DNA from: Pseudohongiella sp. O18
GTDB taxonomy: Bacteria; Pseudomonadota; Gammaproteobacteria; Pseudomonadales; Pseudohongiellaceae
Length of the DNA: 64,000 bases
Assembly: GCF_021729085.1 (NCBI RefSeq)
Contig: NZ_JAJSAR010000001.1
Location: forward strand, 186,001 to 250,000
Direction: 5' to 3'
Both the position numbers and the translations under genes were made by a program. Shown here piece by piece: positions 3,495 to 34,569 of the stretch. The notes under the pieces were generated by a model that was given only the letters and a program-made list of their open reading frames with translations, had not been told where the DNA came from and did no database searches. Each line of letters begins with the position of its first letter. Within the stretch, counting starts at the first letter, position 1.

Positions 3495-4643
3495 TCATCG
3501 CGCGGCGCGTTTTTCCATCAGGTCAACAAATTTGTCGAACAGCGGTGCAATATCGTGCGGACCGGGACTGGCTTCCGGATGCCCCTGAAATGCGAATGCT
3601 GGCTTGTCTGTCCGCTCGATGCCCTGCAGGGTGCCATCGAACAGTGATCGATGCGTTGCCCGCAGGTTAGCCGGCAGCGTTTTTTCATCCACGGCGAAAC
3701 CATGGTTCTGACTGGTGATCATCACCGTGCCATCGTCCAGGTTCTGTACCGGGTGGTTGGCGCCGTGATGCCCCAGCTGCATTTTGACGGTTTTGGCGCC
3801 ACAGGCCAGGCCCAGCAGCTGACAGCCCAGACAGATTCCGAATACCGGAATATCTGTTTCCAGTACTTCGCGGATCGCAGCGATTGCGTAATCGCAGGGC
3901 TCCGGGTCACCGGGGCCATTGGACAGGAATATGCCATCGGGATTCATGGCCAGCACTTCGCTGGCCGGAGTCTGCGCCGGCACGACTGTCACCTTGCAGT
4001 TGCGCTGCGCCAGCATGCGCAGAATATTGCGCTTAACGCCGTAATCGAAGGCCACCACATGGAAGGGTTTCTCGTGCTGCATTTCCGGATAACCTTCGCC
4101 ACCCGGACGCCACTCACCCTGCGTCCACTCATAAGGTGACTTCACTGACACCACTTTGGCCAGATCCATACCTTTCAGCCCAGGGAAACCCTTGGCCTGG
4201 TCGATGGCATACTGTTCACCTTTCTCAGCCAGCATGTCGCCGCTGAGAATACAGCCATTGAGAGGACCTTTGTCGCGTAACAGCTGCGTCAGTGCACGCG
4301 TGTCAATTTCTGCAATCGACACAACATTCTGGTCTTTCAGAAATTCTTCGAGACTCTGCTCGCTGCGCCAGTTACTGACAGTCATTGACAGATTGCGGAT
4401 GACCAGGCCTGCGGCCCAGACGCGATCAGATTCATTATCTTCGGCATTGGTGCCGGTATTGCCGATATGAGGATAGGTCAGTGTAACAATCTGTCTCGCG
4501 TAGGAAGGGTCAGTCAATATTTCCTGATAACCGGTCATTGCCGTGTTAAATACCACTTCTCCACTCGCCAGACCCAGGGCACCGATAGCCCTGCCTCTGA
4601 AGACACTACCATCCTCAAGGGCCAGAACTGCTGGATTATTCAA
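3495..4643 (-). CDS. carA: Carbamoyl-phosphate synthase small (glutaminase) subunit
   Basis: CarA hydrolyses glutamine and channels ammonia to CarB. The 382-aa protein has the N-terminal CPSase_sm_chain domain (residues 1-~140) and a C-terminal class I glutamine amidotransferase domain with the nucleophile in [10 protein letters not shown] and the His/Glu dyad in [11 protein letters not shown]. The start is TTG at 4643: it follows a GGGAG Shine-Dalgarno by 6-7 nt and gives the family N-terminus ([17 protein letters not shown]). The rare TTG start together with an upstream terminator hairpin suggests expression is held down and controlled at the leader (see the promoter, leader ORF and terminator entries). 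Confidence 0.98.
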
Positions 4644-32192: not shown

Positions 32193-32246
32193 CTCCATCA
32201 GGGAAATCGTGACATCAACCCCACTGTGACATATTGACGCAGTGAC

Positions 32247-32274
32247 TTGTTTGCGCGCATGTAGATGCGATAAT
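32247..32274 (+). promoter_or_regulatory. Possible promoter of the bufferin-like operon
   Basis: TTGTTT (32247-32252) and GATAAT (32269-32274) are 16 bp apart, upstream of bufA. Weak -35. Published bufferin operons use an ECF sigma; no clear ECF motif was recognised. Confidence 0.35.
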
Positions 32275-32418: not shown

Positions 32419-32886
32419 ATGAATGCAGCAAATAAGTCAGAAGGTTGGAAACTCGCCAGCGCGGCGGCCGCGTTGCTGATGTCCGGTACCGCCGCGGCTT
32501 CAGCCTTCGATTCGCTGGATAACAACCCGGACCAGCCGGTCAAGGTCAGCGTGTGTCAGGACGTTCCGGACACTGCCTTTGCCGCCGTCAGCACCGGCAA
32601 TGAAAACTTTTCCTCAGTCATGTGTCAGGTCATGGGCGGTACTCAGGCCAAAGCGCTGACAGCAGCTGCAGGAACTGACCTGGCATCGGACGCTGTACAG
32701 GTGACTTACTGCAATGACGTTTTCACCTGCGCAGGTCTCAGTGCCTGTAAGGGCAATGCCAACGCCAATTGTGCGGGTCAGAACACCTGTCATGGCATCG
32801 GATTTGTTGGCGTATACAGCGATAGCAAAGACATCTCTGACTCACTGTGCGAGAAGCTTGGCGGCACGGTGCTGTCGTCGCTGTAA
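32419..32886 (+). CDS. Bufferin/HvfA-type RiPP precursor (BufA2-like), internally duplicated
   Basis: 155 aa. Start ATG at 32419 follows an AGGAG Shine-Dalgarno; frames upstream are discarded. Signal peptide ~10-29 (WKLASAAAALLMSGTAAASA). The mature part has eight Cys (46, 69, 98, 104, 110, 118, 124, 144), with tandem CAGLSACKG (104-112) and CAGQNTCHG (118-126) of the BufA2 type, and the end pattern CHGIGFVGVYS...LCEKLGGT. The mature protein is duplicated: VKVSVCQDV (41-49) mirrors VQVTYCNDV (93-101) and SVMCQVMGGT mirrors DSLCEKLGGT, but copy 1 lacks the Cys-rich core. The following MNIO enzyme and DUF2063 partner make this a metal-buffering RiPP cluster. Metal and modification are inferred. 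Confidence 0.8.
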   Translation: MNAANKSEGWKLASAAAALLMSGTAAASAFDSLDNNPDQPVKVSVCQDVPDTAFAAVSTGNENFSSVMCQVMGGTQAKALTAAAGTDLASDAVQVTYCNDVFTCAGLSACKGNANANCAGQNTCHGIGFVGVYSDSKDISDSLCEKLGGTVLSSL

Positions 32887-32900
32887 AGCCACCCCCTGCC

Positions 32901-33716
32901 ATGCTTGGCTTCGGATTGGGTCTTCGCAGTCAGCACTACAATGACGTGCTGACTGGGTGGCCCGACGTCGACTGGTTTGAGCTGATAACCGAGAACTACC
33001 TGGCCCCCGGCGGGCGCCCGCGCGCGATTCTGCGCCAGGTTCGCGAACACTACCCTGTTGTTTTACATGGCCTGTCATTCAACATTGGCACAGCCGAAGC
33101 GCCCGACTTTGACTACCTGAAGCAACTCAAGGCGCTGATTAAAGAAGTACAACCGGCCTGGGTGTCCGACCATCTCTGCTGGACAGGACTGCACGGCAAA
33201 ACCTCACACGACCTGCTGCCCATCGCCTACAATCAGGAGACGCTGGATCAGGTTGCCGGTAAAGTAAGCCAGATTCAGGACTACCTCGGCCACCACATCG
33301 TGCTGGAAAACCCGTCAGTCTACATTCAGTTCCGGTCTGCCAGTATGAGTGAGGCCGAGTTCATCAACACCCTGGTGGAGAGAACCGGCTGTCAGATACT
33401 GCTGGATGTAAACAATCTCTATGTCAGCTGTTTCAACCTGGGGCTTGATCCCTATCAGTCCCTGCAGGCGCTAAGACCAGACTGTGTTGCGCAGTTCCAT
33501 CTGGCCGGGCACACGCATAACAGCAGTCATATTATCGACACCCACGACCAGGCCGTCAGCGACCCTGTGTGGGAACTGTATGCCGCAGCCTGCAAACGAT
33601 TCGGTGCCACAGCAACCCTGCTGGAACGGGACGACAATATACCCCCGCTGCAGGAGCTGATTGCTGAACTGGCACAGGCCAGAGCGATTCAGCAGCAGGC
33701 GCTGGACACCCAATGA
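32901..33716 (+). CDS. MNIO/DUF692 RiPP-modifying enzyme (BufB/HvfB-type)
   Basis: 271 aa, multinuclear non-haem iron-dependent oxidase family; members convert Cys in RiPP precursors to oxazolone/thioamide or thiooxazole groups. Conserved metal-binding segments are all present: WFELITENYL, VVLHGLSFNIG, VSDHLCWTG, LENPSVY, LLDVNNLYVS, QFHLAGHTH, IIDTHDQAVSDPVW and LLERDDNIP. ATG at 32901 gives MLGFGLGLRSQHY, the usual start; the frame extends upstream with a GTG inside bufA. It lies 14 nt after bufA and precedes the DUF2063 gene. Confidence 0.9.
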   Translation: MLGFGLGLRSQHYNDVLTGWPDVDWFELITENYLAPGGRPRAILRQVREHYPVVLHGLSFNIGTAEAPDFDYLKQLKALIKEVQPAWVSDHLCWTGLHGKTSHDLLPIAYNQETLDQVAGKVSQIQDYLGHHIVLENPSVYIQFRSASMSEAEFINTLVERTGCQILLDVNNLYVSCFNLGLDPYQSLQALRPDCVAQFHLAGHTHNSSHIIDTHDQAVSDPVWELYAAACKRFGATATLLERDDNIPPLQELIAELAQARAIQQQALDTQ

Positions 33717-33750
33717 CATACGCAGCATCGTGCCCGTGGAGAGCAGGCTG

Positions 33751-34569
33751 ATGACCTGGTCAGAGGAACAGGAAGCTTTCTGGAAGTGGATAACCCGGCC
33801 GCAGGACCTGCGCGAGAGCGCCGATGATATCCAGCAGCTATTCAAACCTCACCGGGAAATAAGCCAGGTCGAAGCGCTGGCGATTTACAACAACGCCTAC
33901 CACCAGCGACTGATACAAATTTCCTCCGAGCTTTTCCCAGTGACCCATCACACCCTGGGTCAGGATGTGTATACCCGACTCTGGATCGAGTACCTGGCAA
34001 GCTCACCACCGCGCCCCGGGCCTATGGGCCTGCTGGGCGAAAACCTGCTGGCTTTCGTTCGGCAACACCAGCAGTTCGGAAAGCTGCCAGCCCTGATCAG
34101 CATCATCGAGCTGGAAAGCCTGCTGATCGAGCTGTTCGATCGCGCTGACGAACCTGCCTACACCCAGGCGCAGCTTCAGTGTCTGCCGCCTGATCAGTGG
34201 CCGGAGACGCGCTGGCAGGTTAAACAGGATTGGGCCATCATGAGCAGTGCATTTGACCTGGAACAGTACTGGAGTCAGATGCAGCAACACATGAACTCTC
34301 CGGACCCTGTGCCAGGAGAAACCAGCTTCTCTGCAATGAAGTTTACGGATACTGATTGTGCATGGTATCTGGTGCGCAGATCAGATTATCGGATGCAGTT
34401 CCACCGTATCAGCGAACTGATGGCAGGTTTTCTGCAGAGACTGCAACAGGGAGTTAATTTCGCTGGACTTTGCGACTACCTGAACAGCGAGCGTCCTGAT
34501 GAGGACATTCCCACACTCAGCCTGCAGCTGCTGCTCAAGACAATCGAGCTGCAGCTGCTGCATCGCTAG
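33751..34569 (+). CDS. DUF2063 partner protein of the MNIO enzyme (BufC/HvfC-type)
   Basis: 272 aa; the frame opens upstream at 33661. The N-terminal domain has the DUF2063 hallmark ISQVEALAIYNNAYHQRLIQI and LFPVTHHTLG. The family helps present the precursor to the MNIO enzyme. It completes the bufA-bufB-bufC order. The stop of this gene and of the facing OsmC-like gene are 6 nt apart. No DoxX-like fourth gene is in the cluster. Confidence 0.85.
   Translation: MTWSEEQEAFWKWITRPQDLRESADDIQQLFKPHREISQVEALAIYNNAYHQRLIQISSELFPVTHHTLGQDVYTRLWIEYLASSPPRPGPMGLLGENLLAFVRQHQQFGKLPALISIIELESLLIELFDRADEPAYTQAQLQCLPPDQWPETRWQVKQDWAIMSSAFDLEQYWSQMQQHMNSPDPVPGETSFSAMKFTDTDCAWYLVRRSDYRMQFHRISELMAGFLQRLQQGVNFAGLCDYLNSERPDEDIPTLSLQLLLKTIELQLLHR

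Follow-up and report, generated by a model that had tools for sequence, protein, structure and literature searches.

A core-less module kept by selection in a duplicated bufferin-type precursor of the Pseudohongiellaceae

Composition of the bufABC operon

The operon studied here raises the question of why a bufferin-type precursor should carry two modules when only one of them possesses a core of cysteines. It is located in the window, i.e. the whole 64,000-nucleotide stretch of Pseudohongiella sp. O18 DNA that was analyzed, and had been interpreted from the sequence alone as a bufferin-type cluster comprising a Cys-rich precursor, a DUF692 enzyme and a DUF2063 partner (Table 1). This assignment was borne out, as the bufB product scored above the cut-off of the BufB model and the order precursor, MNIO, DUF2063 protein was found both in the window and in 28 out of 28 Pseudohongiellaceae relatives.

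Table 1 Features of the bufABC locus, given in positions of the window.
Feature	Position	Strand	Basis
bufA, two-module Cys-rich precursor, 155 aa (P0001), 8 Cys	32419..32886	+	ORF; BufA2 profile on module 2
bufB, MNIO maturase, 271 aa (P0002)	32901..33716	+	NF050167 above cut-off; PDB relatives
bufC, DUF2063 partner	33730..34569 (GTG start; ATG 33751 possible)	+	PF09836 above cut-off
Module 1, hollow, aa 40-76, Cys46 and Cys69 only	32536..32646	+	Alignment with 28 relatives; purifying selection
Module 2, complete, aa 93-155, six Cys	32695..32883	+	BufA2 profile; alignment
17-bp near-palindromic operator-like site TGTGACATATTGACGCA	32225..32241	+	Conserved upstream of bufA
Promoter-like CTTGTT-N17-GATAAT, 4 nt downstream of the operator-like site	32246..32274	+	Consensus resemblance only

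When compared to Pfam and NCBIfam profiles, the bufB product matched PF05114 (352.5 bits) and the BufB model NF050167 (357.8 bits, cut-off 310), by which it classifies as a bufferin-type MNIO, and remained under the cut-off of the HvfB model (251.1 vs 360 bits). The bufC product matched PF09836 (43.3 bits, cut-off 27.2), with a weak C-terminal match to NGO1945_C (E 0.037) and a score under the cut-off of the HvfC model NF050145 (24.1 vs 142 bits). The precursor was recognized by the BufA2 model NF050166 over residues 82-151 (E 7.8e-8), and since the score of 32.4 bits is below the curated cut-off of 60 and concerns module 2 only, P0001 is here named Buf2-like rather than a curated BufA2 member. 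No DUF2282 match was found for P0001 among the same profiles, and its Pfam matches to DUF938 and nec1 were under cut-off and dismissed as chance. The N-terminus of P0001, read by eye, is hydrophobic and signal-like, and presumably constitutes a Sec-type signal or leader.

The bufB product aligned with eight distinct PDB sequences, the best being 3bww and the others including 8hci, 7dz9, 7fc0, 7tcr and 7tcw, and its His/Asp/Glu motifs matched up by eye with those of 3bww. Asp244 is followed by Asp245, at a position where 3bww has a phenylalanine. According to passages of PMC13097082, an aspartate replaces Phe250 of FonB in the Cys-Lys (BufB2) enzymes, and Asp245 may be equivalent to this site. 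The PDB sequence search returned no relative of P0001 at E values up to 1 and no usable relative of the bufC product, whose best match (E 0.39) was an unrelated protein. A single-sequence AlphaFold2 model of P0001 was unusable (mean pLDDT 35, pTM 0.26). A profile search of the genome gave one MNIO match and one BufA2 match, and a search of genome contigs for related loci returned one locus, present as an identical copy in a MAG.

Distribution and genomic neighborhood

Among 137 Pseudohongiellaceae genomes searched, the precursor was encoded in 29, belonging to three of eight genera (g1, g5 and g7), and the locus was compared between the window and the 28 other precursor-bearing genomes. UbiJ is encoded upstream of the operon in 27 of the 29, i.e. 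wherever the contig reaches (window included). The operon had been proposed to replace ubiB next to ubiJ, which is correct with regard to position: in all three genera bufABC is found after ubiJ instead of ubiB. Where no buf match was present at the locus (eight genomes), the distance from ubiJ to the ubiB gene behind it was up to about 150 bp in five genomes, about 0.6 kb in one and more than 2 kb in two. The proposal does not hold in the sense of a loss, since the same genome that contains the window encodes ubiB elsewhere (G000:C1:1203772-1204521), apart from ubiE-ubiJ and beside frames that by eye appear tat-like and Coq7-like (L097, G000:C1:1200000-1208000). ubiB is thus displaced, not lost.

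Homology of the two modules

The cysteines of module 2 are found at positions 98, 104, 110, 118, 124 and 144 of P0001, with the core repeats CAGLSACKG and CAGQNTCHG. These positions agree with the earlier reading that the core is confined to module 2 and that module 1 retains just the flanking Cys46 and Cys69. A module of this kind, i.e. with its first and last cysteine but no core, is referred to as hollow below.

The similarity of the two modules was modest when the window protein was considered by itself. The local alignment score was 45 compared to a shuffle mean of about 22, and was reached by none of 5000 shuffles with the module boundaries of the sequence-only reading and by four of 5000 with a wider cut, corresponding to fitted p values of 5e-4 and 9e-4, respectively. 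Decisive similarity was found in the relatives: in 21 that retain some core in module 1, the two modules gave fitted p values from 2e-8 to 6e-15. Module 1 and module 2 are homologous, as the sequence-only reading had suggested. Were they not, module 1 would be an unrelated two-Cys domain resembling module 2 by chance, a reading compatible with the modest p values in the window protein and with the absence of a BufA2 profile match to the window's module 1. Against it, the module 1 cores of the relatives show the same CxG...CKG...CSG pattern as module 2 at the p values given above, and the same frame residues line up through hollow and full module 1 forms, which renders a chance likeness scarcely credible.

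Origin of the duplication

That the precursor family might never include a two-module form was also checked, and all 29 precursors of the Pseudohongiellaceae were found to have two modules. When 47 modules were placed in one tree (on 62 columns, a small number for that many rows), those of this family, whether module 1 or module 2, grouped together (100/100) and apart from canonical Buf2 proteins of other families with one or two modules; this duplication is therefore separate from that of the 12-Cys Buf2 proteins examined. Eight core-bearing module 1 copies from two genera formed one group with moderate support (88/98, on the same 62 columns), and the duplication therefore most simply predates those genera. 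Two-module Buf2 proteins with 12 cysteines have already been described in passages of PMC12452194, and for this reason the novelty does not lie in the duplication by itself.

For comparison, two-module loci from outside the family were inspected by eye, and 15 out of 15 had 6+6 cysteines. Among the matches listed, this set comprised one locus from the class (L121) and 14 from the order, the latter belonging to 12 genomes outside the family, and it is biased against hollow forms because its members were chosen for both modules matching the BufA2 profile. In one set of 20 regions, L079, L080, L083 and L085-L088 were left out of this judgement, as L086 yielded only a spurious frame and the other six no precursor; the precursor of L075 came from a second extraction. 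In a further set of 20 regions outside the family (L106-L125, L121 among them), chosen mostly for long frames, no hollow module was seen in 17, and the remaining three (L110, L124 and L125) yielded no precursor. Two loci with expanded core runs stand outside the count of 15: L123 (G862, 160000-162000) and L122 (G851) each have neighboring Buf2-type frames, one per locus with extra CKG-type core units. In L112, L117, L118, L119 and L120, long frames were observed by eye in which a Buf2 module follows a MerC-type-looking membrane domain, similar to the MerC-Buf2 fusions already published.

Erosion of the module 1 core

Counted over the 29 precursors, the first and last cysteines of module 1 are always kept, and its core positions are retained to different extents (C1 29, C2 9, C3 21, C4 0, C5 17, C6 29). 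The corresponding counts for module 2 are C1 29, C2 28, C3 28, C4 26, C5 29 and C6 29. None of the 29 keeps six cysteines in module 1, which sets the family apart from the published 12-Cys form, and the totals for the whole protein span from 11 down to 6. Module 1 is hollow in eight of the 29, namely in the window genome G000 together with G008 and G009 (g1), in G020 (g7) and in G018, G034, G053 and G025 (g5). In each of these rows 22 or 23 alignment columns spanning C3-C5 are empty and C2 is not a cysteine; the segments around C1 and C6 are preserved together with a GG motif that is invariant in 19 aligned rows. All 21 non-hollow copies lack Cys4, and intermediate states with 5, 4 and 3 module 1 cysteines exist within the family. 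As core cysteines are also lost in four of the 29 module 2 copies, part of this trend may be general shrinkage.

Two of the hollow rows have further peculiarities. In L047 (G009, 4169-4588), module 2 lacks half its core (14 residues between the two CAG repeats), so that four cysteines remain in a Buf1-like pattern. The bufA product of L049 (G020) has an extra cysteine in its signal region within a lipobox-like LTGC (by eye), which suggests a lipoprotein bufferin in this hollow lineage.

The number of core losses was estimated on two trees, one of BufB and BufC and one of the neighboring genes HslU-DUF971-UbiE-UbiJ, where the latter covered 26 of the 29 genomes (three contigs being cut) and seven hollow rows. 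Module 1 changes state four times on the BufB+BufC tree and at least three times on the neighbor-gene tree. Placing all hollow rows in one clade was rejected both by BufB+BufC (p about 4e-160) and by the neighboring genes (p 4e-4), and a single ancestral hollow gene that spread among genera is ruled out by the former test. A grouping of the g1 with the g7 hollow rows was rejected by the neighboring genes (p 1e-3), whereas BufB+BufC did not reject it (p 0.14). On the BufB+BufC tree the hollow rows of g1, three in number, did not form one clade, and constraining them together was likewise not rejected (p 0.41). Both trees have L046 and L049 on long branches. From these clade tests we consider two independent core losses firm and a third probable.

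As for the direction of change, the simplest reading is an ancestral core from which the hollow state was derived, because the core-bearing module 1 copies group together and share the loss of Cys4; it is this moderately supported grouping that gives the direction, which the parsimony counts alone do not. Taken with the intermediate states, the results agree with the proposed course, in which a duplication came first and one copy then lost its core; this loss occurred at least twice and probably three times.

Selection on the hollow module

Whether the hollow copies are mere remnants was addressed by counting substitutions in three close pairs of hollow module 1 sequences; L047 and L049 were left out as they have no close hollow partner. 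In total 26 synonymous changes were found at 73 sites versus 7 non-synonymous changes at 266 sites (Fisher p 1e-13, rounded counts), the individual pairs giving 2/25 and 0/86 (p 0.05), 15/24 and 6/90, and 9/24 and 1/90, respectively. The pooled pN/pS of the hollow set was 0.17 for module 1 and 0.07 for module 2, with one row pair overlapping others. Hollow module 1 is hence freer than module 2, yet far from neutral and under strong purifying selection. The hollow copies are accordingly not junk, and neutral decay of module 1 is ruled out by these counts.

A related reading, in which module 1 is a redundant duplicate on its way to being lost, would account for the loss of module 1 cysteines in all 29 relatives and for the faster evolution of this module seen in the pooled values. 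It is very improbable in view of the purifying selection found in three separate pairs, the frame cysteines lost in none of the 29 precursors, and the persistence of the frame through two or more independent excisions of the core. With the frame kept by selection, the empty half probably has a job of its own.

Upstream region and candidate regulon

The operator-like site upstream of bufA (Table 1) is a candidate operator for regulation of bufABC. Of 27 upstream slices, that of the window among them, 24 had a site with at most two mismatches to TGYGRCANNNTGYCRCA, and the other three end too near the gene; the best matches had 0 mismatches in 7 slices, 1 in 15, 2 in 2 and 5 in 3. L058 and L062 were left out, as too little upstream sequence was available. 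The promoter-like element was seen in 25 of the 27 slices, and 22 slices showed both, with a gap of 3, 4 or 14 nt between site and element. At most one mismatch was reached in 0.13% of 5400 random slices, which is not an independent test as the pattern was derived from the same sequences that were counted.

In the genome containing the window, the related pattern TGNGNCANNNTGNCGCA was listed at four exact places, preceding bufA, copC-copD (L127 1501-1517), a TonB-dependent receptor gene (L129 1501-1517) and a DUF4168 gene at C1:1139325. The products of copC-copD matched Pfam CopC and CopD, and the receptor matched Plug, all above cut-off. With at most one mismatch, 71 and 61 matches were found per strand versus 32 and 33 for a reversed-pattern control, from which about half of these matches are attributable to chance. 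Within the window, a related pattern was not enriched at two mismatches (13 found vs 11.1 expected), and its only exact match there is the bufA site. A search of the genus gave one to five exact sites per genome, and the reversed control gave none in 12 of 15 genomes; the control equaled the site count in G007 (1) and G009 (3), and reached 1 vs 3 in G013, so that some of the sites may be due to chance. One locus per genome was inspected for these 15 genomes, and six were found beside the receptor or its homologues (that of the window genome included), one was the bufA locus and eight had other neighbors. As the near-palindrome of bufA recurs before copC-copD and the TonB receptor gene, a metal (copper) regulon is suggested, and the three sites plausibly constitute a small candidate regulon for a metal, probably copper, that is partly conserved in the genus.

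The operon might instead serve another metal or the response to redox stress. The bufA site resembles RegA/PrrA/RoxR redox sites, and the genome encodes one RegB/RegA-like pair (C2:211172, under curated cut-offs). Fusions of MerC with Buf2 moreover suggest other metals for some bufferins, as stated in passages of PMC12452194. The presence of a similar site before copC-copD argues for copper, as do the functionally described bufferins and captophorins, which act on copper in the passages of PMC12452194 and PMC13097082, and a role outside copper handling thus appears improbable.

Proposed working and role of the hollow module

The explanation that best accounts for the locus as a whole, and which we regard as likely, is a divergent Buf2-type bufferin operon with a family-specific duplication, stepwise loss of the module 1 core and a selected frame. 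BufA would consist of a Sec-type leader and two homologous modules. As expected from the family membership of BufB, BufB and BufC would oxidize module 2 at its four core cysteines, thiooxazoles being the most likely result, and the exported product would bind copper in the periplasm. Both modules stem from a duplication specific to the Pseudohongiellaceae, after which module 1 shed its core cysteines step by step; in the lineage of the window, about 22 residues were excised in frame and the entire core was removed. As comparison with the relatives shows, this excision left the frame segments, the GG motif, and the first and last cysteine, presumably joined in a disulfide. The hollow module might then be a half that packs on module 2 and, bonded by its disulfide, serves folding and stability, so that the two-lobed form is retained while the number of metal sites falls. 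Among the functional readings this structural role is the most likely, and we give it about an even chance.

The main rival is a role in maturation, in which the hollow module would serve docking or spacing by extending the signal-peptide leader, allowing BufC (via its RRE) and BufB to reach the distant core of module 2; the module 1 core would have been shed since only one core is modified. The hollow module does sit between leader and core, it is under purifying selection, and its core was lost repeatedly with the frame kept. Preliminary results of Antoine et al. on Buf1 likewise point to the signal peptide as part of the sequence recognized by BufB-BufC (passages of PMC12452194). Yet the same source puts the share of six-Cys, one-module proteins among Buf2 precursors at about 90%, which implies that most of them do without such a half, and a mere spacer would require neither the Cys pair kept in 29 of 29 precursors nor the GG motif. 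We consider docking unlikely, and the structural half remains the preferred reading.

Whether structural or docking, and whether it belongs to the mature product or to maturation, the hollow module may exemplify a duplicated RiPP core domain that was repeatedly emptied and became a permanent, disulfide-framed non-core domain (a pseudo-core), a generalization we find possible at somewhat less than even confidence. If true, it would be the RiPP counterpart of a pseudoenzyme subunit. How BufB-BufC recognizes exported substrates with a signal peptide is a question posed in PMC12452194, in the passages concerned, and hollow modules offer a natural separation of frame from core that has arisen more than once. 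The series of module 1 copies with 5, 4, 3 and 2 cysteines and module 2 copies with 6, 5 and 4 bears on the role of the frame Cys pair, on the number of metal sites needed, and on whether a core-less module is needed in maturation.

Comparison with known bufferin systems

No description of hollow or core-less bufferin modules was found in the open-licence literature searched by title and start of abstract, nor in the passages of the sources cited. Among EGKCG captophorins/oxazolins (fontiphorin, bulbicupramide), the likeness consists of an MNIO with a DUF2063 partner, and published members have Cys-derived copper ligands; the window precursor differs in having no EGKCG repeats, and its MNIO has the Asp245 described above where 3bww has Phe. 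Buf1 (DUF2282) shares the logic of a frame disulfide with core cysteines (passages of PMC12452194), and the four-Cys pattern in module 2 of G009 is similar, whereas the window precursor has no DUF2282 match and is derived from a six-Cys module.

The closest likeness is to Buf2 (BufA2, BUF_6/12Cys), with which the locus shares the bufABC order, the signal-like N-terminus, a BufB-type MNIO, and a six-Cys module comprising first and last frame cysteines, four core cysteines and a CxxxGG-type end. In comparison with the canonical Buf2 modules examined, the C3-C4 spacing is one residue longer, and the C5-C6 loop is longer as well. The window precursor further differs from Buf2 in its BufA2 score under cut-off, in a duplication of its own, and in a module 1 stripped to the frame, while the 12-Cys Buf2 forms examined keep both cores. 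What appears to be new relative to the published two-module Buf2 proteins, in the literature covered, is a core-less module kept by selection.
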